Under the pieces are notes generated by a model, which had not been told where the DNA came from, made no database searches, and saw only the letters and a list, made by a program, of their open reading frames with translations. A stretch of 64,000 bases of DNA from assembly GCF_009746585.1 (NCBI RefSeq), contig NZ_WRPO01000004.1:62001-126000 (forward strand), read 5' to 3'. The position numbers were made by a program, and so were the translations under genes. Shown one piece after another: positions 10,000 through 64,000 of the stretch (positions within the stretch are counted from its first letter, which is position 1; each line of letters starts with the position of its first letter). Source of the stretch: Novosphingobium aquimarinum (GTDB taxonomy: Bacteria; Pseudomonadota; Alphaproteobacteria; Sphingomonadales; Sphingomonadaceae).

Positions 10000-11640
10000 A
10001 TGAGCCCACGCAACTCCGTTTCGGATCGCTACGATGCCCTCATCATCGGCGCGGGCCACAACGGCCTCGTCTGCGCCTTCTATCTGGCGCGCGCCGGACT
10101 GAAAGTGCGGGTGCTCGAACGGCGTGCGGTCGTCGGCGGCGCGGCCGTGACTGAAGAATTTCACCCCGGCTTCCGCAATTCGCTGGCGAGCTACACCGTC
10201 AGCTTGCTGCAACCCAAAGTCATTGCCGACATGCGATTGCCCGAGCGCGGCTATCGCGTGATCGAGCGGCCGATCGCCAACTTCCTGCCGCAGCAGGACG
10301 GCGGCTACCTCAAGGTCGGCGGCGGCCTTGCCCGCACCCAGGCCGAGTTCGCGCGCTTCAGCCAGGCCGATGCCGAGGCCCTGCCCCGCTACTATGATGC
10401 GCTCGAACGTGTCGCCGACGTGCTGCGCGGCCTGGCGCTGCAACGCCCGCCCAACCTCGGCGAGGGCTGGCGCACGATGCTGGCCGCAGCCAGCCAAGGT
10501 CTGCCGCTGGCCCGGCTCGACCTCGAAACCCGGCGCGACGTGCTCGATCTCTTCGCCAAGTCCGCGCGCGGCTTCCTCGACGGCTGGTTCGAAAGCGAGG
10601 CGATCAAGGCCGCGTTCGGATTCGACGCCGTGGTCGGAAACTATGCCTCGCCCGATACGCCGGGCAGCGCCTACGTGCTGCTCCATCACGTCTTCGGCGA
10701 GGTCAACGGCAAGCGCGGTGCCTGGGGCCATGCCATCGGGGGCATGGGCGCGATCACGCAAATGATGGCCGAGGCTGCATGCGAAGCGGGCGCGCAGATC
10801 TCGCTCGAAAGTCCGGTCGCGCAAGTGCTGGTGGATGGCGGCAAAGTCGCGGGCGTGACACTGAAAAGCGGCGAGGAGATCGGCGCAGGCCGCGTCATCG
10901 CCAATGTCGGCCCGCGTCTGCTTTACGAGCGGCTTCTCGCGCCGGCGGATCTCGATCCCGACTTCCGCCGCCGCATCGCCACCTTCCGCACCGGCAGCGG
11001 CAGCTTCCGGATGAACCTCGCGCTATCCGAATTGCCGCGCTTCACATGCCTGCCCGAACCCGGCGAGCACCATCGCGCCGGCATCATCATCGCACCCACG
11101 CTGGAATACATGGATCGGGCTTTTCTCGATGCGAAACGAGACGGCTGGTCGCGCGCGCCGATCGTCGAGATGCTGATCCCGTCCACCGTCGACGATAGCT
11201 TGGCGCCGCCCGGTGCTCACGTCGCCAGCCTGTTCTGTCAGCAGTTCGCACCCGATCTGCCCGCGAGACGCGATGGCGCTCTCCGCGACTGGGACGACGA
11301 GGAAGACGCCGCCGCGGATACGATCATCGACACCGTAGAAGCCTACGCACCGGGCTTTCGCGCCTCGATCCTCGGCCGCCGGATCCTCAGCCCCAAAGGT
11401 CTCGAGCGCACGCTCGGCCTCGTGGGCGGCGACATCTTCCACGGAGCGATGACGCTCGACCAGCTCTGGTCGGCGCGCCCGATGCTGGGCCACGGCGGCT
11501 ATCGCGGCCCGATCGACGGTCTGTGGATGTGCGGCGCCGGCACCCACCCCGGCGGCGGCGTCACCGGCGCCCCGGGCCACAACTGCGCGCACGCGATCCT
11601 GGCGGGGCGCAAGCGGATCGGCCGGCGTACGTTAGGATGA
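10000..11640 (+). CDS. CrtI/PYROXD2-like FAD-dependent oxidoreductase
   Basis: FAD-dependent amine-oxidase-fold protein of 546 residues, in the family containing phytoene desaturases and the PYROXD2 group. The dinucleotide-binding motif DALIIGAGHNGLVCAFYLAR sits at the N-terminus, followed by VLERRAVVGGAAVTEE. The C-terminal FAD motif GLWMCGAGTHPGGGVTGAPG is intact. The start at 10000 (MSPRNSV) lies just before the Rossmann motif. No other carotenoid gene is adjacent, so a carotenoid role is not supported here. Substrate unknown. Confidence 0.88.
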   Translation: MSPRNSVSDRYDALIIGAGHNGLVCAFYLARAGLKVRVLERRAVVGGAAVTEEFHPGFRNSLASYTVSLLQPKVIADMRLPERGYRVIERPIANFLPQQDGGYLKVGGGLARTQAEFARFSQADAEALPRYYDALERVADVLRGLALQRPPNLGEGWRTMLAAASQGLPLARLDLETRRDVLDLFAKSARGFLDGWFESEAIKAAFGFDAVVGNYASPDTPGSAYVLLHHVFGEVNGKRGAWGHAIGGMGAITQMMAEAACEAGAQISLESPVAQVLVDGGKVAGVTLKSGEEIGAGRVIANVGPRLLYERLLAPADLDPDFRRRIATFRTGSGSFRMNLALSELPRFTCLPEPGEHHRAGIIIAPTLEYMDRAFLDAKRDGWSRAPIVEMLIPSTVDDSLAPPGAHVASLFCQQFAPDLPARRDGALRDWDDEEDAAADTIIDTVEAYAPGFRASILGRRILSPKGLERTLGLVGGDIFHGAMTLDQLWSARPMLGHGGYRGPIDGLWMCGAGTHPGGGVTGAPGHNCAHAILAGRKRIGRRTLG

Positions 11641-11974
11641 GCGCGCGGGCAGGAAGCGGTCACGCAGACGATCAGCGGTGTTAGGTTGCGATCGCGAGCG
11701 TGTATCTTTCGAAGGGCTCTGACTACGTTCGCGGAACTGCCTCACCGGGACACTGGATCGGATGAAAGGAAAGCCGCGCCCAGCGCGAGGATTTTTTCCA
11801 CAACTGCAAGCGCGAGCGCCGAATACTGACGCCAAAAAAAATCATTGCAAGTCTTGTCGTGCCTTGCGGAATGTCCCACAAATTCAGTCAAGGCAGGCAG
11901 GCAAGTTCCGGAACGCCCCGGAACCCAGGCCCACCGCCCCGGCCGCGCAAGCGGTCACCCTGGCTCAATAGCGC
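11641..11974. other. Gene-free stretch upstream of the 18-codon ORF
   Basis: About 330 bp. It contains an A-rich run (near 11834) that may belong to a promoter for the small ORF at 11991. I see no protein-coding gene with family character. Confidence 0.4.
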
Positions 11975-11990
11975 GAAAGGAGGTGATCCG

Positions 11991-12047
11991 ATGTCTCATG
12001 GTTCAGCAGAGAGGTCGGCAATATCCGTCGCGAGGCATTATCGCTGA
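11991..12047 (+). CDS. 18-codon leader-type ORF with extended Shine-Dalgarno
   Basis: Encodes MSHGSAERSAISVARHYR. Immediately upstream, 11975-11989 reads GAAAGGAGGTGATCC, 15 bases perfectly complementary to the expected 3' end of 16S rRNA, with GGAGG seven bases before the ATG. The ORF is followed by a small stem (GGCGGC/GCCGCT near 12076-12094) and then a strong terminator. This is the layout of a leader-peptide or small-RNA transcript. The peptide is not enriched in Ile, Leu or Val, so classic ilv attenuation is not indicated even though ilvE lies downstream. Confidence 0.55.
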   Translation: MSHGSAERSAISVARHYR

Positions 12048-56788: not shown

Positions 56789-56923
56789 TTTCTGCCTGAC
56801 TGACTCGATCTGTCACGCCCTTTTGGCGGCGCGTGAGCCAGCATTCCGGCATCCGTTCGAAAAATGAGGGAGCCCGTCTCTAGAAACGAGGCTGGACCGG
56901 TTACGCAAAACACGTCATGCCTT

Positions 56924-56939
56924 ATGAAATCGTTTGCCA
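56924..56939. promoter_or_regulatory. LacI-type operator upstream of TonB receptor
   Basis: ATGAAATCGTTTGCCA shares AATCGTTTGCCA(A) with the operator at 55650-55665; the left arm is imperfect. It ends just before the receptor's ribosome binding site (AAGGGGG at 56942), where bound repressor would block expression. Confidence 0.65.
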
Positions 56940-56955
56940 AAAAGGGGGCCGAATC

Positions 56956-59169
56956 ATGATCAAGTTGACCAGGACGCCTGCACCGTCGCTGAGGCCTCGC
57001 ACAACACGGACGAGCCGCTTGACCGTGCGCAGTGCGGCACTTTGCACGGTGGCCGTGGTCGTGCTCGCCGACTGCGCGCCGGCCATGGCCCAAGCGGCAT
57101 CCGCCGGGGTGACGGACGCGCCCATGGATATCGTCGTGACCGCCGAGCGGCGCGAGACCACGGTGCAGCAGACGCCCATCTCGATCGGCGTTTTCGACGG
57201 CGAAGATCTGATCAAGCGTGACGTCACGACGCTCGAAGCGCTGTCGCGAGTGGCACCGGACATTTCCTTTACTCAGGCCGACGGCCAGCCGATCATCGCG
57301 ATCCGCGGGATTTCCAGCCAGAATACGGGGGCGGTGGGCGATCCCGCCATCGCAGTGTCCACCGACGGCTTCTATCTGAACCGACCTTACGCGCTGACCG
57401 CATCGTTCTACGATCTGGAGCGCATCGAGGTGTTGCGCGGACCGCAAGGAACGCTGAACGGGCGCAACGCCAATGGTGGCGCGATCAACATCCTGACAGT
57501 TCGGCCGCAAAGCGAGTTTGGCGGCTTCGCCACTGCCCAATACGGCAATTACAATGCGGTCGGCATCCAAGGCGCACTGAACGTTCCGCTAAGCGATACC
57601 GCGAAGGCGCGCGTCTCGTTTCTGTCGCGCACTCACGATTTCTATCGCGATACCCCGCCGCAGGAAGGTGGCGACGATGAAAACACCCAGTCGATACGCG
57701 GTCAGATCCTGTTGACCCCGACCGACCGCCTGAAGATCTGGGCTCTGGCCCAATACAACTTCATCGGCGGCTCTCCGGGCGTCGCCCAGAATATTCCGTT
57801 CGTGTTTGATGCGGACGGCACGATCGTTCATGATCTTCCGTCGGGCATCAATGACGAGACCTTTACCGCCGGCGTCCCCAACTACACCCGGATGAACGAG
57901 CACACCTTCAAATGGAGTGCCGAATACGACCTCGATGCGATCAAGATCACCTACCTCGGTGGTTATGACGACACCAGCTATCGTCGGCAGGACGACGATT
58001 CCAACAATGGCAAGGTCTACGGGTTCCGAATGAAGGAAAAGCCCCGCACCTGGAACCAGGAACTGCGGGTCTCTTCAGGTGATGATTCGCGTCTGTTCTG
58101 GCAGGTCGGCGTCTTCTATTTCAATGAAAAGAACGATCTCTTCTCGGCGGAATATTATGCCCAGCCGGGCGGGACTTATGCCCGAGGCTACACTTTCGAC
58201 TATCACGTCACTTCCAAGTCGCTCGCCGGCTTCGGTCAGGCAAGCTACAAGATCACCGATCAGCTGACCGCGACCGCCGGCATCCGCTACACTCACGACA
58301 AGAAGCGGCGCTCGGGCCTGGTCCAGTTTGCCGACGACGACGTGCCCGTCGATCCGGTGAGCTACTTCACGGTTTATCAGGACAATTCGGGGACCTGGAA
58401 CAAGGTGACCTACCAAGCCGGGCTCGACTATCAGGTGACCCCGCGCAACATGGTCTATGCGAAGATCGCGACCGGCTACAAGTCTGGCGGCTTCGTGCCG
58501 CTGGCGACTTACAAGCCCGAAACCGTCACCAGCTACGAGGTTGGTTCGAAGAACCGCTTTGCCGGCAATCTGCTACAGCTCAATCTCGCCTTCCACTTCG
58601 AGGACTACAAGGATCAGCAAGTGTCGCAGCTGGCGACGCTGCCGGATGGCGGGGTCGCGACACTGATCCGCAACGCCGGCAGCTCGCACATCTACGGCCT
58701 GGAGACCGATCTTGTCCTGACACCGGCACGGACCACGCGCATCACGGCTTCGGTGAATTATCTCCACGCGCGCTTCGAGGACTTCGAGACCGTGCAGGAC
58801 GGTGTAAACGTCCAGCTTGCCGGCCGCACTCCGCCGAATGCGCCGGACTGGTCGATCGGGCTCGGGGCGGAGCAGGACATTCCGCTCGCATCCGGAACGC
58901 TCACTCTATCCGCGGACTCTAAGTACCAATCCGCCCAGTATTTCTCTTACTTCAACTTCGATTCGACACGGCAGAAAGCCTACACGATGTCGAACGCGAG
59001 CGTGACCTACGCACCGGACGCGGCGAATTGGAGCGTCTCGCTTTACGCCAACAATATCGAGGATCGGCGCGTGTTCACCAACGCTGTCGAGAACGCCTTC
59101 ACCCAATCCTACCACTACAGCTTCTACGCCCCGCGCACGTATGGCGGTCGGGTCACTCTGAAGTGGTAG
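56956..59169 (+). CDS. TonB-dependent receptor of the glucoside locus
   Basis: Outer-membrane receptor of 737 residues. It has a long signal region (ending near APAMAQA), a TonB-box-like MDIVVTAERRETTV, a plug (IEVLRGPQGTLNGRNANGG) and a barrel ending RTYGGRVTLKW. AAGGGGG is 8 bp before the ATG. The operator overlap with the LacI/GH3 divergent region suggests uptake of a glycoside across the outer membrane. A contribution to the sulfatase or purine genes to the right cannot be excluded. Confidence 0.92.
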   Translation: MIKLTRTPAPSLRPRTTRTSRLTVRSAALCTVAVVVLADCAPAMAQAASAGVTDAPMDIVVTAERRETTVQQTPISIGVFDGEDLIKRDVTTLEALSRVAPDISFTQADGQPIIAIRGISSQNTGAVGDPAIAVSTDGFYLNRPYALTASFYDLERIEVLRGPQGTLNGRNANGGAINILTVRPQSEFGGFATAQYGNYNAVGIQGALNVPLSDTAKARVSFLSRTHDFYRDTPPQEGGDDENTQSIRGQILLTPTDRLKIWALAQYNFIGGSPGVAQNIPFVFDADGTIVHDLPSGINDETFTAGVPNYTRMNEHTFKWSAEYDLDAIKITYLGGYDDTSYRRQDDDSNNGKVYGFRMKEKPRTWNQELRVSSGDDSRLFWQVGVFYFNEKNDLFSAEYYAQPGGTYARGYTFDYHVTSKSLAGFGQASYKITDQLTATAGIRYTHDKKRRSGLVQFADDDVPVDPVSYFTVYQDNSGTWNKVTYQAGLDYQVTPRNMVYAKIATGYKSGGFVPLATYKPETVTSYEVGSKNRFAGNLLQLNLAFHFEDYKDQQVSQLATLPDGGVATLIRNAGSSHIYGLETDLVLTPARTTRITASVNYLHARFEDFETVQDGVNVQLAGRTPPNAPDWSIGLGAEQDIPLASGTLTLSADSKYQSAQYFSYFNFDSTRQKAYTMSNASVTYAPDAANWSVSLYANNIEDRRVFTNAVENAFTQSYHYSFYAPRTYGGRVTLKW

Positions 59170-59364
59170 ACTGAACCGACATGACCGCTCTCGCACTTCA
59201 AATACGCCCGATTGTACCGCCGACCGTCGCGGGCCGAGCGGGAGCGGTCCACTGGAGATCACGGAGTGCCGCGCAGATGACTATGATCGATCTCGACGGT
59301 CGGACACCATGCGCAGATATGATCGTCACGTTGCCCCGGGTCCAGTCGCATCAGGAGCTTTGCC

Positions 59365-60717
59365 ATGAACCGTCGTGATCTTATGGGTTCCGCAGGAGCG
59401 CTTGCACTCGCTGCGCTTCTTAGCCCCGCCGGCTTGGCGAAAGGCGTCGCGCGATCGGTACCGGCCCCGAATTTCATCCTCATCATGTGCGACGATCTCG
59501 GGTTCGGAGACATCCAGCCTTACGGCGGCACGATTCCCACCCCCAACATCAATCGGCTCGCGGCCGAGGGCGTGACGCTCGACAATTATTATGCGCCGGC
59601 CAATCTGTGCACGCCGTCGCGCGCAGGAATTCTCACTGGCAGGCAACCGATCCGCAGCGGGCTTGGGTGGGAAGTGCTGCTGGAAACCGATGCGCGCGGT
59701 CTGCCCGTATCGGAACGCACGATCGCGGACGAATTGGCGCCGCGTTATGCGTCGGCACTGATCGGTAAGTGGCATCTGGGTACGGCGCCGCAATATTGGC
59801 CGCCGACCAAGCACGGTTTCGATCTGTTCTACGGCATTCCCTATAGCCACGACATGACCCCGCTGGCCTTGTTCGAATCCCACGCCGGGTCCGACGCAGT
59901 TGCCTCGCAGCCGGTCGAGCTTGCGTCGCTGCAGGAGAAGTTCTGCCGACGCGCGGAAGCATTCATCGACGAGCATCGGGCGAAGCCGTTCTTTCTCGAG
60001 CTCGCGTTGAGCGCGCCGCATCTGCCCACTGTGCCGCCGGAGCCGTTCAAGCACACGAGCAAAGCAGGATCCTACGGCGATGTCGTTCGCGAGATCGACT
60101 CGATCGTCGGCCGCATCGTCGACAAGATCGACGCTCTGGGTCTCGCGGAAAATACCCTGATCATGTTCACATCCGACAACGGCCCGTGGTTCGAGGGCTC
60201 GCCGGGGCCTTTGCGGGATCGGAAAGGCGGCAGCGCGTATGACGGGGCCTCGCATGTGCCGTTCCTGGCCCGCATGCCGCGCACGCTTCCCCCCGCCACC
60301 CGGACCAAGGCGATCGCGTCGGGGCTCGATATCCTGCCCACGCTGTGCGCGATGGCGGGCGTGACGCCCGACAACGATGAACTGGACGGCCTGGACATGC
60401 AGGCTGTTCTCAAGGGGAGCGCGACGTCGCCCCGCGACGAAATCGTGTTGTTCAACAACGAATCCGTGGTCGGCATCAGGACCCAGCGGTGGAAATATGT
60501 TTCGGAGACGTATTACCGCGGCGGGCGCACCGACTATGTCGAGCGCGGCTACCCGCAGCTCTACGATATGGAGCTCGATCAGGGCGAAAACTACAGCGTC
60601 GCCGACCTCTATCCCGACGTACTCGCAGATATGCAGGCGCGCTGGCGGGCGGCAGTCGAGAAGTTCGCGCCGTTCAGGACCCCGAGACCCAAGGGATTCG
60701 ACTGGGTGTCAGAATAG
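59365..60717 (+). CDS. Cys-type sulfatase with twin-arginine-like signal
   Basis: Type I sulfatase of 450 residues. The maturation motif is NLCTPSRAGILTGR (Cys82, C-x-P-S-R), metal ligands lie in MCDDLGFGD and TSDNGPW, and IGKWHLG is present. The N-terminus MNRRDLMGSAGALALAALL is a Tat/Sec-type signal, so export to the periplasm is likely. GGAG is 8 bp before the ATG. It needs formylglycine maturation, which the FGE at 36417 could provide. It is 107 bp upstream of the Rieske-type genes; whether it serves that pathway is unknown. Confidence 0.92.
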   Translation: MNRRDLMGSAGALALAALLSPAGLAKGVARSVPAPNFILIMCDDLGFGDIQPYGGTIPTPNINRLAAEGVTLDNYYAPANLCTPSRAGILTGRQPIRSGLGWEVLLETDARGLPVSERTIADELAPRYASALIGKWHLGTAPQYWPPTKHGFDLFYGIPYSHDMTPLALFESHAGSDAVASQPVELASLQEKFCRRAEAFIDEHRAKPFFLELALSAPHLPTVPPEPFKHTSKAGSYGDVVREIDSIVGRIVDKIDALGLAENTLIMFTSDNGPWFEGSPGPLRDRKGGSAYDGASHVPFLARMPRTLPPATRTKAIASGLDILPTLCAMAGVTPDNDELDGLDMQAVLKGSATSPRDEIVLFNNESVVGIRTQRWKYVSETYYRGGRTDYVERGYPQLYDMELDQGENYSVADLYPDVLADMQARWRAAVEKFAPFRTPRPKGFDWVSE

Positions 60718-60824: not shown

Positions 60825-61682
60825 ATGGACCCAATACTCTGGAACGACTGGCATGTCGTGGCCGACGCCACGGCGTTGCAGTGCGATCGTCCGATCACGA
60901 CAAGACTGCTTGGAGTGCCTCTGACGGTTTCTCGCGACGCGCAAGGCGCAGTCCATGTCGTCGGGACCGATGGCAGCCCGATCGTGAGCGACGTCCGCCA
61001 CGGTTTCGTCTGGGCCTGTCTCGGTAAGCCTGCCCGGCCCATCCTGAGCATCGCCGAACTGGCCGAGCCCGATCGCTGCGTTACCACGGCGGGTTCGTTC
61101 GGCGTCCACGTTTCGGCCGGACGCGTGATCGAGAACTTCCTCGACCTGGGGCATCTCGGCCATGTGCATGCGGGCTATCTGGGCCAGGAACCGCAGACGG
61201 CGGTCGAGCCCTACGAGGTCGCACGACTGCCCGATGGCGGTGTCCATGCCAGCGGCTGCAAGGTCTTTCAGCCGGTCTCATCGCCGACGGCGCAGAGCGG
61301 GTTCGTGGTCGAATATCAGTACAAGGTCGAGCGAGCGCTGACCGCCTCGCTCTACAAAAGCAGCTTCAGCCAGCCCGATCGTTTCGACGTCATCTATCTC
61401 TTTGCCCAGCCGCTGGACGAAGAGCATGCGATCGCCCACGTCCTCGAGATATTCATCGACGATGGCGTGTCCCCGGCCGCGTTGCGCGCTTTCCAGCAGT
61501 TCATCTTCCTGCAGGACAAGCCGATCCTCGAAAATCAGATTCCCAAGCGCCTTCCGATCGGACAACGCATGGAAATGCCGGTGCTCGCCGACAAGACCTC
61601 GGTCGCCTATCGGCGCTGGCTGGCCGAACTGGGCGTGACTTACGGAACGGTCGGAGCGCATGACGGAGGGCTTCCGGCATGA
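60825..61682 (+). CDS. Rieske-oxygenase catalytic subunit lacking its Rieske cluster (NdmC-like)
   Basis: A 285-residue protein with the mononuclear-iron domain of Rieske non-heme oxygenases: ENFLDLGHLGHVHAGYLG supplies Asp107, His110 and His115, and LQDKPILENQ supplies the likely iron carboxylate Asp231. The N-terminal part keeps a shrunken Rieske-like fold (about residues 5-80) but has no CxH or CxxH pair, so it cannot hold a [2Fe-2S] cluster. Electrons must come from another protein; the next gene encodes one. NdmC of the caffeine pathway shows the same loss. GAGG is 6 bp before the ATG. Confidence 0.82.
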   Translation: MDPILWNDWHVVADATALQCDRPITTRLLGVPLTVSRDAQGAVHVVGTDGSPIVSDVRHGFVWACLGKPARPILSIAELAEPDRCVTTAGSFGVHVSAGRVIENFLDLGHLGHVHAGYLGQEPQTAVEPYEVARLPDGGVHASGCKVFQPVSSPTAQSGFVVEYQYKVERALTASLYKSSFSQPDRFDVIYLFAQPLDEEHAIAHVLEIFIDDGVSPAALRAFQQFIFLQDKPILENQIPKRLPIGQRMEMPVLADKTSVAYRRWLAELGVTYGTVGAHDGGLPA

Positions 61683-62275
61683 CCGTCCGTGAAGGCTGGC
61701 ACCCCATCGCCGCATCCGACGATTTGCCCGCCGGGCATATCTATGCCGCGCAACTCTGCGACGTGCCGCTCGCTGTGTGGCGGGGGCAGGATGGCACAGT
61801 CAATGTCTGGGAAGATCGCTGTCCGCACCGAGGAGTGCGCTTCACGATCGGCTCGATTCATGGCGACGAACTGCGCTGCCAATATCATGCCTGGCGGTTC
61901 AGAAGCGGCAGCGGCGCCTGCTCGGCCATTCCCGCCCACCCGACACGCAAACCCTCGTCCGCGATCCGCGCCACCCTCTTTCCGGGCGTCGAGCGCGATG
62001 GACTGGTGTGGACCAAACTGGCCGGCGATCAGGATGCACCGCCGCAGCTGGATTACGCAGGCGCGGTCCTGCGAGCGATCGCGGTCAATTGCACGGCGCA
62101 AGCGATCGAGATCGCGATCGCGCGGGCACCCCTGCCCGGCGTACGGCTGTTCGTGCAGCCCGTGTCCTTCGCACGCGCCGTGATCCGGGGGCTTGCCGAA
62201 GATGTCAGCCGGCTTGCCGAGCATGATGCGGCGCTCGAACGATTGCGGCGCGGACTCGAAAGAGCAGCGGCATGA
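61679..62275 (+). CDS. Stand-alone Rieske [2Fe-2S] protein
   Basis: A 198-residue protein whose first half is an oxygenase-type Rieske domain: cluster ligands Cys48-x-His50 in RCPHRGVRF and Cys67-x2-His70 in RCQYHAWRF. There is no catalytic iron domain and no flavin or plant-type ferredoxin domain; the second half (about residues 110-198) is an unassigned helical extension. ATGA overlap with both neighbours indicates fixed stoichiometry. It probably replaces the lost Rieske cluster of the preceding subunit, as the extra Rieske domain of NdmD does for NdmC. Confidence 0.85.
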   Translation: MTVREGWHPIAASDDLPAGHIYAAQLCDVPLAVWRGQDGTVNVWEDRCPHRGVRFTIGSIHGDELRCQYHAWRFRSGSGACSAIPAHPTRKPSSAIRATLFPGVERDGLVWTKLAGDQDAPPQLDYAGAVLRAIAVNCTAQAIEIAIARAPLPGVRLFVQPVSFARAVIRGLAEDVSRLAEHDAALERLRRGLERAAA

Positions 62276-62928
62276 TTCTGTACGACTATCCGCCGCTTGC
62301 CGAATGCTATGCGGTGCGGCTGCTCGCGGCGTTGCTCGACGTGCCGCTCGAGATCCGCTCACTCGATTATTATCCGGGGCGCGAGCATGAAACGGACGAG
62401 TATCTCGACATCGCTCCGCTCGGCAGCGTGCCGGCCCTCGATACCGGCACGGCGGTGCTGGGGGACTGGCAGGCTGCACTCATCCATCTTGCCGCCCACC
62501 ATGATGCGACCGGGCAATGGCTGCCGCTCGGCGATCCGGACCGCCTCGTCGCAATCCACGAATGGCTGGCTGTGGCGCGAGCGCTCGCCCACAGCGCCGG
62601 CGTTGCGCGGCTGCACGAACTGATCGGCCAGCCCGCCGTTATCGAACGCTGCCGGACCGAGGCGCATCGCCTTCTGCGCCATCTCGAGCGGCATCTGTGG
62701 TTCGGCGAACGCGCGGGGCGCCGCTGGCTCGTGGAGGGCGAGCAGCCGACAATCGCCGACATCGCTGTCTTCGTGCAAGTCATCCTGTGCGAGGAAGGCG
62801 GGGTCTCGCGCCTCGATTATCCAGCGGTCCGGCGCTGGATCGACAGCGTGCGCGGCATTCGAGGCTTCGTGGTCACCAGCGGCGTGCTGCCGCTCGATCC
62901 GACTGCACCTGTGCATACGCTGGCATGA
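62272..62928 (+). CDS. GST-like protein (NdmE-like role)
   Basis: A 218-residue glutathione S-transferase fold: an N-terminal thioredoxin-like domain (LYDYPPLAECYAVRLLAALL, SVPALDTG cis-Pro loop) and an all-helical C-terminal domain (QPTIADIAVFVQVIL). Coupled by ATGA to the Rieske protein. In the NdmCDE system a GST-like protein, NdmE, is a structural partner needed for N7-demethylation; the same gene neighbour here supports a scaffolding rather than detoxifying role, by analogy. Confidence 0.8.
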   Translation: MILYDYPPLAECYAVRLLAALLDVPLEIRSLDYYPGREHETDEYLDIAPLGSVPALDTGTAVLGDWQAALIHLAAHHDATGQWLPLGDPDRLVAIHEWLAVARALAHSAGVARLHELIGQPAVIERCRTEAHRLLRHLERHLWFGERAGRRWLVEGEQPTIADIAVFVQVILCEEGGVSRLDYPAVRRWIDSVRGIRGFVVTSGVLPLDPTAPVHTLA

Positions 62929-62938
62929 GCGGATTACG

Positions 62939-64000
62939 GTGGTAGCCGCCTTTGCCATTTGCGGCGATCTTTATCACACGCCCACGCGTGGATGCCTGGA
63001 AGCCCTCGCAGACTGTCTGATCGAAGTCGGCGAAACCGGCCGGATCGAACGCATGACCCGCGCAGACGAACCGGCTTATGCGTCCCGGCTCGAACGGGCC
63101 GATCGATTGATCCGGCTGCAGCCCGGCCAGTGCCTGCTGCCCGGTTTTGTCGATTGTCACGTCCATGCTCCGCAATGGCCGCAATTGGGCACGGCGCTGG
63201 ATCGGCCGCTCGAACAATGGCTCGACCACTATACTTTTCCGCTCGAGGCGAAGTTCGCCGACACAGCCTATGCGCGCGAGGTCTATGCCGATCTGGTGGC
63301 GACCTTGCTGGCGCACGGCACGACGACCGCGGTCTACTTCGGCACCGTCCATGTCGATGCCACTGTGGCGCTTGCGGAGATCTGTCTCGAACACGGCCAG
63401 CGCGCGTTGATAGGCAAAGTCGCGATGGATGATCGGGAACAATGTCCTGATTTCTACCGGGACGCCGATGTCGATGCAGCGCTCGCCGCCACGGCCGAGA
63501 CCATCGCGCGGATTCGCGCGCTGCAGCCCGGGGAAGACCATCCGCTCGTGCTTCCGGCCATAACCCCGCGTTTCCTGCCGAGCTGCACCGACGACTTGCT
63601 TGCCGGGCTCGGCGCGCTGGCGCGCGAGACCGGGTGTCATGTGCAGACCCATTGCTCAGAAAGCGACTGGGAGGTGGCGCACTCCGCCGGTCGGTTCGGC
63701 GCGACCGACACGGCGGTCCTCGATCGCTTCGGCCTGCTCGCAACGCGTGCCGTGCTTGCCCATAGTAACTTCGTCACTGCCGACGACCGCGCGATCATCA
63801 AGGCGCGCAACGCTGCGATCGCACATTGCCCCTTGTCGAACGTCTATTTCGCCAATGCAGTCTTGCCTTTACGCGAAGCGCTCGACGAAGGCGTCCATGT
63901 CGGTCTCGGCAGCGACATCGCCGGTGGAAGTTCGCCCTCGATCCTGGACAACGCCCGTATGGCGATGACGATATCCCGTCTGCGCGCCTCGGGCATGGAT
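62939..64000 (+). CDS. guaD: Guanine deaminase (3' end beyond window)
   Basis: Amidohydrolase truncated by the window edge; start GTG at 62939, 10 bp after the GST stop. Metal and substrate motifs follow guanine deaminases closely: LPGFVDCHVHAPQW, LDHYTFPLEAKFAD, TTTAVYFGTVHVD, HCSE, RAVLAHSNFV, AHCPLSNVYF and GLGSDIAGGSS. It converts guanine to xanthine and ammonia. Its place in the run points to a purine, probably guanine or a methylated guanine, as the pathway intermediate. About 354 codons are visible. Confidence 0.9.
   Translation, partial: MVAAFAICGDLYHTPTRGCLEALADCLIEVGETGRIERMTRADEPAYASRLERADRLIRLQPGQCLLPGFVDCHVHAPQWPQLGTALDRPLEQWLDHYTFPLEAKFADTAYAREVYADLVATLLAHGTTTAVYFGTVHVDATVALAEICLEHGQRALIGKVAMDDREQCPDFYRDADVDAALAATAETIARIRALQPGEDHPLVLPAITPRFLPSCTDDLLAGLGALARETGCHVQTHCSESDWEVAHSAGRFGATDTAVLDRFGLLATRAVLAHSNFVTADDRAIIKARNAAIAHCPLSNVYFANAVLPLREALDEGVHVGLGSDIAGGSSPSILDNARMAMTISRLRASGMD

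Follow-up and report, generated by a model that had tools for sequence, protein, structure and literature searches.

A putative three-protein purine N-demethylase encoded with a second class of guanine deaminase in Novosphingobium aquimarinum

Introduction

The closest described system to the operon analyzed here is NdmCDE of Pseudomonas putida CBB5, which is reported to N7-demethylate 7-methylxanthine, and in which the catalytic subunit NdmC is without a Rieske cluster and NdmE is needed (PMC4408171). The same paper postulates that NdmE lines up the extra Rieske cluster of NdmD with NdmC, and, citing Summers 2013, it counts 18 organisms whose ndmCDE homologues have no known function, the others being predominantly Sinorhizobium and Mesorhizobium (PMC4408171). 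A second source describes NdmE as structural and non-catalytic (PMC9830774). Here, we describe an operon in a 64,000-nucleotide stretch of the Novosphingobium aquimarinum genome (the window; contig C34, positions 62001 to 126000; genome of 4.38 Mb in 57 contigs), which encodes an oxygenase catalytic subunit of the NdmC family (ORF1), a stand-alone Rieske [2Fe-2S] protein (ORF2), a glutathione S-transferase (GST)-like protein of the NdmE family, and a guanine deaminase of a second class that we call GuaD2. The operon probably specifies a three-protein N-demethylase of the NdmC type that acts on a guanine carrying a methyl group or on the corresponding methylxanthine; 7-methylguanine from RNA is the likeliest substrate, and GuaD2 would provide a deamination step.

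The window operon shares with NdmCDE a Rieske-less catalytic subunit, a Rieske domain on a second protein, a GST-like third protein, and the gene order catalytic subunit, Rieske, GST; its oxygenase, Rieske, and GST genes are homologous to those of the listed ndmCDE homologues. It differs in that its Rieske protein has only 198 residues and no reductase, that a guanine deaminase gene follows in the operon, and that ORF1 lies on another branch of the oxygenase tree. NdmCDE was compared through a similar cluster on a plasmid of P. putida MT178 (L007), whose genes we label NdmC-, NdmD-, and NdmE-type from their anatomy, the records being without those names. In S. meliloti and most of the fetched Mesorhizobium loci, the oxygenase is represented by two paralogues and the Rieske domain is fused to a reductase, whereas the window operon has a single oxygenase and an unfused Rieske protein. 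The R. leguminosarum plasmid pRL4 (L010) also has a stand-alone Rieske protein, a Rieske-less oxygenase (40% identity to ORF1), and a GST, but the Rieske gene comes first and a BMP-type ABC transporter comes after.

Enzymes of this type are known, and homologues of them have been noted earlier. A preceding sequence-only reading of this DNA knew of no described system with the gene set, which is too strong given the ndmCDE homologues in PMC4408171; the claim survives for the unfused Rieske protein and for the association with GuaD2, neither of which was found in searches of open-licence papers. A bacterial 7-methylguanine pathway was likewise not found there. As far as that literature shows, the stand-alone Rieske form, the complementary loss of metal sites, the GuaD2 class and its link to the oxygenase, and the proposal of a methylguanine substrate are new.

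Results

Four tightly coupled genes

The four genes occupy positions 60825 to 64294 on the forward strand, the last of them running past the window end at 64000. ORF1 (60825-61682, 285 residues) and ORF2 (61679-62275, 198 residues) share a four-base ATGA overlap at 61679-61682, and ORF2 and the GST gene (62272-62928, 218 residues) share another at 62272-62275, with all three genes starting at ATG and stopping at TGA. After a gap of 10 bases GuaD2 starts with GTG at 62939, extending to 64000 in the window and to 64294 on the contig (451 residues). The sequence-only reading had reported this coupling by ATGA overlaps and a 10-bp gap, and we find the same coordinates and start and stop codons; the identities it gave the genes, namely a Rieske-less oxygenase, a Rieske protein, a GST, and a guanine deaminase, are upheld by Pfam and TIGR family matches. 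Four-base overlaps at both joints are also present in five related loci (L015, L016, L017, L039, and L066; start codons chosen by script), and because the oxygenase-Rieske-GST set and these overlaps recur in related loci, the arrangement is not due to chance. A promoter and terminator scan gave no signal exceeding shuffled sequences, and an Rfam search at gathering thresholds of the window and four related loci (L002, L035, L039, and L088) returned one tRNA and nothing else.

Complementary metal sites in ORF1 and ORF2

ORF1 matches VanA_C (60.1 bits, cut-off 23.5), with neither a Rieske match nor a Rieske pattern, and an NCBIfam search with it gave no match. It is 41% identical to the NdmC-type protein of P. 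putida MT178 and 53% identical to an S. meliloti relative (52.7% in tblastn, the top match among 267 plasmid records). Residues H110, H115, D231, and D107 are present in 119 of 119 family rows, and from their roles in the Rieske oxygenase family we take the first three to be the iron site and D107 to be the bridging aspartate. ORF1 has the features of NdmC, with the mononuclear iron site kept and the Rieske cluster absent, and does not have both metal sites together as do the one-chain alpha subunits VanA, NdmA, and SxtT; in a sequence alignment with a one-chain relative, it is the cluster-binding part that is missing. No row retained in the oxygenase tree, the one-chain outgroup aside, has the Rieske pattern; 14 of the 134 rows were removed (below 150 bits or 200 residues; full-length oxygenases and fragments). 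In this tree ORF1 clusters with three sphingomonad rows, apart from the caffeine-type NdmC rows.

ORF2 has a Rieske domain as its only Pfam match (75.1 bits, cut-off 20.3), is 38-42% identical to the N-terminal part (up to about 240 residues) of five NdmD-type proteins, and has C48, H50, C67, and H70, which are invariant in 45 of 45 rows. The operon accordingly places the Rieske cluster on a partner protein, as in NdmCDE, but this partner is not the Rieske-flavin-NADH-ferredoxin reductase that NdmD is. The closest PDB match of both ORF1 and ORF2, by sequence and by structure, is SxtT, which like GxtA belongs to saxitoxin biosynthesis. The ORF1 model (pLDDT 94.5) aligns with SxtT over 271 residues (Z 32.7, rmsd 2.0), and the ORF2 model (pLDDT 95.0) aligns over 197 of its 198 residues with SxtT residues 4-289 (Z 20.4, rmsd 2.0). 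As modeled, ORF2 is the Rieske oxygenase fold in full except for about 90 catalytic-core residues, its tail being a predicted vestigial catalytic domain, and the two models complement each other within a single SxtT-like fold, with the cluster region missing from ORF1 and the iron site from ORF2. SxtT and GxtA carry both metal sites on one chain, whereas in the window operon the sites are on two proteins, and the ORF2 cluster would serve ORF1.

Two trees bear on which of the split and fused forms may be older. In a tree of 82 Rieske parts and an outgroup, the stand-alone (22) and fused (60) proteins are separated by one change, with a support of only 59, and mapping the two forms onto the oxygenase tree takes six changes, so the case for the stand-alone form as the older one is weak.

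The GST-like protein and the supply of electrons

The product of 62272-62928 matches GST_C_2 with 39 bits (cut-off 24.9), with GST_N_2 also over its cut-off, and is 44% identical over 207 residues to the NdmE-type protein of P. putida MT178 and 43% identical to that of S. meliloti, so that the operon has the NdmE-type third protein of NdmCDE. Taken with the identities of ORF1 and ORF2 above, this turns the analogy to NdmC, NdmD, and NdmE that had been drawn from the sequence into homology, over the full length for ORF1 and the GST and with the Rieske half of NdmD for ORF2. An outside ferredoxin and ferredoxin reductase would be required because ORF2 is without the reductase of NdmD, and the host genome has three Reductase_C genes and twelve places matching Fer2, with one reductase gene and one Fer2 place on contig C5 separated by about 1.1 kb. 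Four loci with a stand-alone Rieske gene have a reductase gene of their own in the cluster (L054, L062, L091, and L093), and therefore the Rieske and reductase parts can be separate.

GuaD2 is distinct from the canonical guanine deaminase

Full-length GuaD2 belongs to the guanine deaminase family TIGR02967 (403 bits, cut-off 375.4), falls short of the PRK09228 subfamily (255 bits, cut-off 351), and has human guanine deaminase (2uz9) as its nearest solved structure. A canonical guanine deaminase (GuaD1; PRK09228, 573 bits) lies on the same contig at C34:140449-141759, about 14 kb from the operon. Nine positions, H74, H76, Q79, R211, F212, H238, E241, H275, and D326, which were aligned with 2uz9 and which we take to be the metal or guanine site, are conserved in 16 of 16 GuaD2 and 18 of 18 GuaD1 rows; positions close to them set the classes apart consistently, with Y133, P214, C216, S242, and W244 present in all 16 GuaD2 rows. 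A branch with support 100 splits the two classes in a tree of 34 deaminases, which omits the partial L069 sequence and an outgroup. We scanned 20 genomes for deaminases, chosen mostly for a linked GuaD2 rather than at random; of the ten with a linked GuaD2 (the window's included, that of L065 not counted), nine also have a canonical guanine deaminase, and the tenth is a 2.5 Mb metagenome-assembled genome (MAG).

In a sample of 385 alphaproteobacterial genomes, apparently the same draw for the oxygenase and GuaD2 searches and with each genome's best few candidates scored for GuaD2, GuaD2 is found in 3 of the 9 genomes that have the oxygenase versus 3 of 376 without it (Fisher p 1.7e-4), and the enrichment persists when the window's genome is removed (2 of 8 versus 3 of 376, p 0.0037). 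The three sample genomes with both genes have them on one contig within about 5 kb. The 12 GuaD2-linked rows on the oxygenase tree require at least 10 changes, and GuaD2 linkage has therefore been gained or lost repeatedly.

The neighborhoods of five unlinked GuaD2 genes were checked with a query set of our own in place of a Pfam scan. There is no purine gene within 20 kb of those in G334, G691, and G692; that of G625 adjoins an NCS2-like match (32%), and that of G385 has HIUase-, adenosine deaminase-, and XdhFeS-like matches within 9 kb. For the G385 gene (C28:184293-185636) the search reported one in-frame TAG, yet the frame is open over 451 residues when read.

Relatives of the oxygenase and their neighborhoods

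Among 84,980 species genomes scanned there are at least 552 oxygenase relatives, of which 79 loci were fetched, ruling out the operon as a private oddity of the strain. Counts over these loci are tblastn matches with single examples checked (GST within 4.5 kb, Rieske within 4 kb, GuaD2 at 45% identity or more). A GST gene lies within 4.5 kb in 73 of the 79 loci. A BMP-type ABC receptor is present in 48 (PnrA-like, by Pfam in single examples), a glutathione-dependent formaldehyde dehydrogenase in 21, and an S-formylglutathione hydrolase in 13, with the checked examples of the last two passing TIGR02818 and TIGR02821, respectively. GuaD2 is present in 10 of the 79, including L065 and L069, which are partial at the locus end, and the copy in the L065 genome scores 357 bits, under the TIGR02967 cut-off. 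The search for this neighborhood in other genomes, proposed with the sequence-only reading, has shown that the three-gene set recurs and that the deaminase joins it in this minority.

The Rieske gene is fused to further domains in 55 loci, stands alone in 20, and was not found within 4 kb in 4. The stand-alone tally counts L075, which is cut by a contig end, and leaves L088 in the last class though it belongs here, so that the total stays 20; in L088, a stand-alone Rieske gene and a GST gene lie 6-7 kb off on the opposite strand. The fused class includes L082, also cut by a contig end, L049, a Rieske-Fer2 protein, and L051 (400 residues), which may be alike. The L049 protein (10860-12026, Paraburkholderia) fuses Rieske and plant-type ferredoxin (Fer2) domains with no flavin or NAD match and is a third partner architecture. 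By record titles the relatives come from Alpha-, Beta-, and Gammaproteobacteria, Acidimicrobiales, Nocardioides, Planctomycetota, and one Eremiobacterota MAG. Occurrence is patchy, with the oxygenase in 1 of 296 genomes of the order, the window's own (single-protein search, E 1e-20), and in 9 of 385 of the class. A Planctomycetota MAG (L091) and a Piscinibacter MAG (L093) have identical oxygenases and the same gene layout, and L091 may be misbinned; both are counted.

The P. putida MT178 cluster is built like the caffeine genes and comprises a nucleobase symporter, a TIM-barrel protein, the Rieske-less oxygenase, a 588-residue Rieske-reductase, a GST, and an S-formylglutathione hydrolase, and also a formaldehyde dehydrogenase. 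Further annotated ndmCDE-like clusters occur in one Klebsiella and one second Pseudomonas; that of Klebsiella pneumoniae (L008, NZ_CP015501.1, IncFIB/IncHI1B) sits among insertion sequences with a full-length oxygenase and a TIM-barrel gene, and a nucleobase symporter follows about 9.5 kb on. S. meliloti pSymA has two oxygenase paralogues, a Rieske reductase, a GST, and a BMP transporter, and most fetched rhizobial clusters (L006 and L018-L034 among others) have two Rieske-less oxygenase paralogues in tandem. The S. meliloti paralogues differ, with M versus Q at the position aligned with NdmA N282 and TGW versus TDI after the second iron histidine, where ORF1 has AGY, and rhizobial paralogues may attack different methyl positions.

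The purine island beside the operon

Immediately downstream, mostly on the opposite strand, C34:126291-151130 (64291-89130 in window terms) is an island of purine genes: an NCS2 permease, an 8-oxoguanine deaminase (679 bits, cut-off 532), a purine nucleoside permease, adenosine deaminases, a nucleoside hydrolase, and the canonical guanine deaminase, which adjoins XdhC and XdhB, with HIUase and urate oxidase farther on. The XdhB of this genome scores over its family cut-off. The island also holds a TonB receptor, a polysaccharide-deacetylase-family gene, and a class V aminotransferase. Upstream, at 56917-60717 on the same strand as the operon, are TonB receptor and sulfatase genes, the sulfatase ending 107 bases before ORF1; these show no sign of membership in the demethylase set.

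Discussion

In the mechanism that we propose, ORF1 would bind the substrate at its mononuclear iron and receive electrons from the Rieske cluster of ORF2, the GST-like protein would keep ORF1 and ORF2 together as reported of NdmE, and the electrons would come from a ferredoxin and ferredoxin reductase encoded elsewhere in the genome. The methyl group would leave as formaldehyde, and demethylation is favored over hydroxylation because formaldehyde genes adjoin relatives of the oxygenase. Purine N-demethylation, the activity suggested by the sequence-only reading, has gained from the purine genes beside the operon and from the formaldehyde genes and nucleobase and BMP carriers beside relatives, and we consider it probable.

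The choice of substrate is harder. Methylated guanine is favored because a guanine deaminase adjoins the oxygenase, and this link is the sole support for 7-methylguanine, a modified base that is common in rRNA, tRNA, and mRNA caps. The sequence-only reading had the deaminase take the demethylated product, which is possible; because a canonical guanine deaminase is already in the genome, however, GuaD2 may precede the oxygenase, and the latter may act on 7-methylxanthine, the substrate of NdmCDE. GuaD2 would work at one of two points: ahead of the oxygenase, turning 7-methylguanine into 7-methylxanthine, or following it, turning guanine into xanthine. We judge deamination first, followed by demethylation of 7-methylxanthine, at least as likely as the original order. 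In both cases xanthine would pass to the xanthine dehydrogenase and urate oxidase of the same island.

Several observations weigh against this proposal. GuaD2 is nowhere in view in 69 of the 79 loci, some of them short, and the nearest relatives (L015-L017) come from genomes with a canonical guanine deaminase and no GuaD2. GuaD2 is unlinked to the oxygenase in G334, G385, G625, and two Mesorhizobium genomes, and in the class sample 3 of 6 GuaD2 genomes are without the oxygenase. No formaldehyde gene was found beside the window operon, and an NdmD-type reductase query of the host genome matched only a flavohaemoglobin. The GST, BMP, and formaldehyde gene numbers are raw counts over the fetched loci, and for two BMP receptors the sole NCBIfam match is a putative B6 receptor far under its cut-off. 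The position aligned with NdmA N282, which we take to be a substrate-binding residue, is Q in 83 and M in 30 of 119 rows, and therefore substrates may differ within the ORF1 family. What the analysis shows is the homology, the order of the genes, the conservation of metal-site residues, the predicted folds, and the neighborhood; the assembly of a complex, the electron donor, the demethylation, the substrate, and the sequence of reactions are inferred.

The strongest alternative, unlikely but deserving a hearing, is that the same chemistry acts on external plant methylxanthines (theobromine, paraxanthine, or 7-methylxanthine) and that the guanine deaminase is a mere neighbor in a purine island. 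The operon does adjoin a whole such island, the L015-L017 genomes have the oxygenase without GuaD2, and 7-methylxanthine is the reported NdmCDE substrate (PMC4408171). This alternative is opposed by ORF1 being the sole VanA_C match in the genome (assuming that NdmA and NdmB are VanA_C proteins), by the enrichment of GuaD2 with the oxygenase in the class sample, and by the repeated gain or loss of the linkage. A plain caffeine cluster was ruled out on that single VanA_C match.

It is rather improbable that the enzyme demethylates other RNA methylpurines at positions other than N7, for example, 1-methylguanine, N2-methylguanine, or methyladenine derivatives. The residues after the second iron histidine, which differ between the S. 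meliloti paralogues and again in ORF1, suggest different methyl positions, but the one activity reported in the family is at N7 (PMC4408171).

Hydroxylation of the purine ring, as by the molybdenum-free xanthine hydroxylase HpxD, is very improbable. HpxD records do match ORF1, and 8-oxoguanine deaminase is encoded in the island, but the HpxD matches have E values of 6e-12 to 6e-10 versus 5e-57 for the NdmC-type protein, formaldehyde genes recur in the family, and the host has an XdhB of its own. An HpxD-type hydroxylase as such was ruled out as distant from ORF1, at 27-29% identity over about 75% of the length. The structural closeness to SxtT and GxtA might suggest a biosynthetic oxygenase or one from some other catabolic route, but this is hardly credible, since SxtT is the best PDB match in sequence and structure by default, with no NdmC structure among the PDB hits, and since the closest relatives with an informative annotated neighborhood are NdmC-type and purine catabolism surrounds the operon.

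If demethylation of methylguanine or its xanthine is what the operon does, it gives genes for bacterial 7-methylguanine recycling, a pathway not found in searches of open-licence papers, and a substrate class for the ndmCDE homologues that have been listed without a function. The operon would also illustrate cleanly how a metalloenzyme of one chain can be duplicated and divided, with each copy losing the metal site that the other keeps and a GST-like scaffold being recruited. A wider scenario, offered tentatively and with some doubt, is that the operon exemplifies a widespread, as yet unassigned route of methylguanine recycling from RNA: BMP-type or other carriers would import the nucleoside or base, GuaD2 would be a methylguanine deaminase yielding 7-methylxanthine, and a heteromeric Rieske oxygenase would demethylate it. 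The oxygenase would have arisen from a duplicated SxtT-like enzyme by complementary metal-site loss, with the stand-alone Rieske protein perhaps older and a later fusion giving rise to NdmD and the caffeine enzymes.

Two further neighborhoods bear mention. In L015 (5648-7006) and L017 (5908-7293), a PF00860 permease-family gene and a TonB receptor diverge from the oxygenase, and L016 has a similar gene; the permease and receptor fit purine uptake. On a Leptolyngbya plasmid (L012, 8998-9972), a one-chain SxtT-like oxygenase, 29% identical to ORF1 and 39% identical to the Rieske part of ORF2, comes right after a BMP-type (PnrA-like) ABC transporter. This protein may resemble the undivided ancestor, and as a possible one-chain relative it may have a substrate similar to purines.

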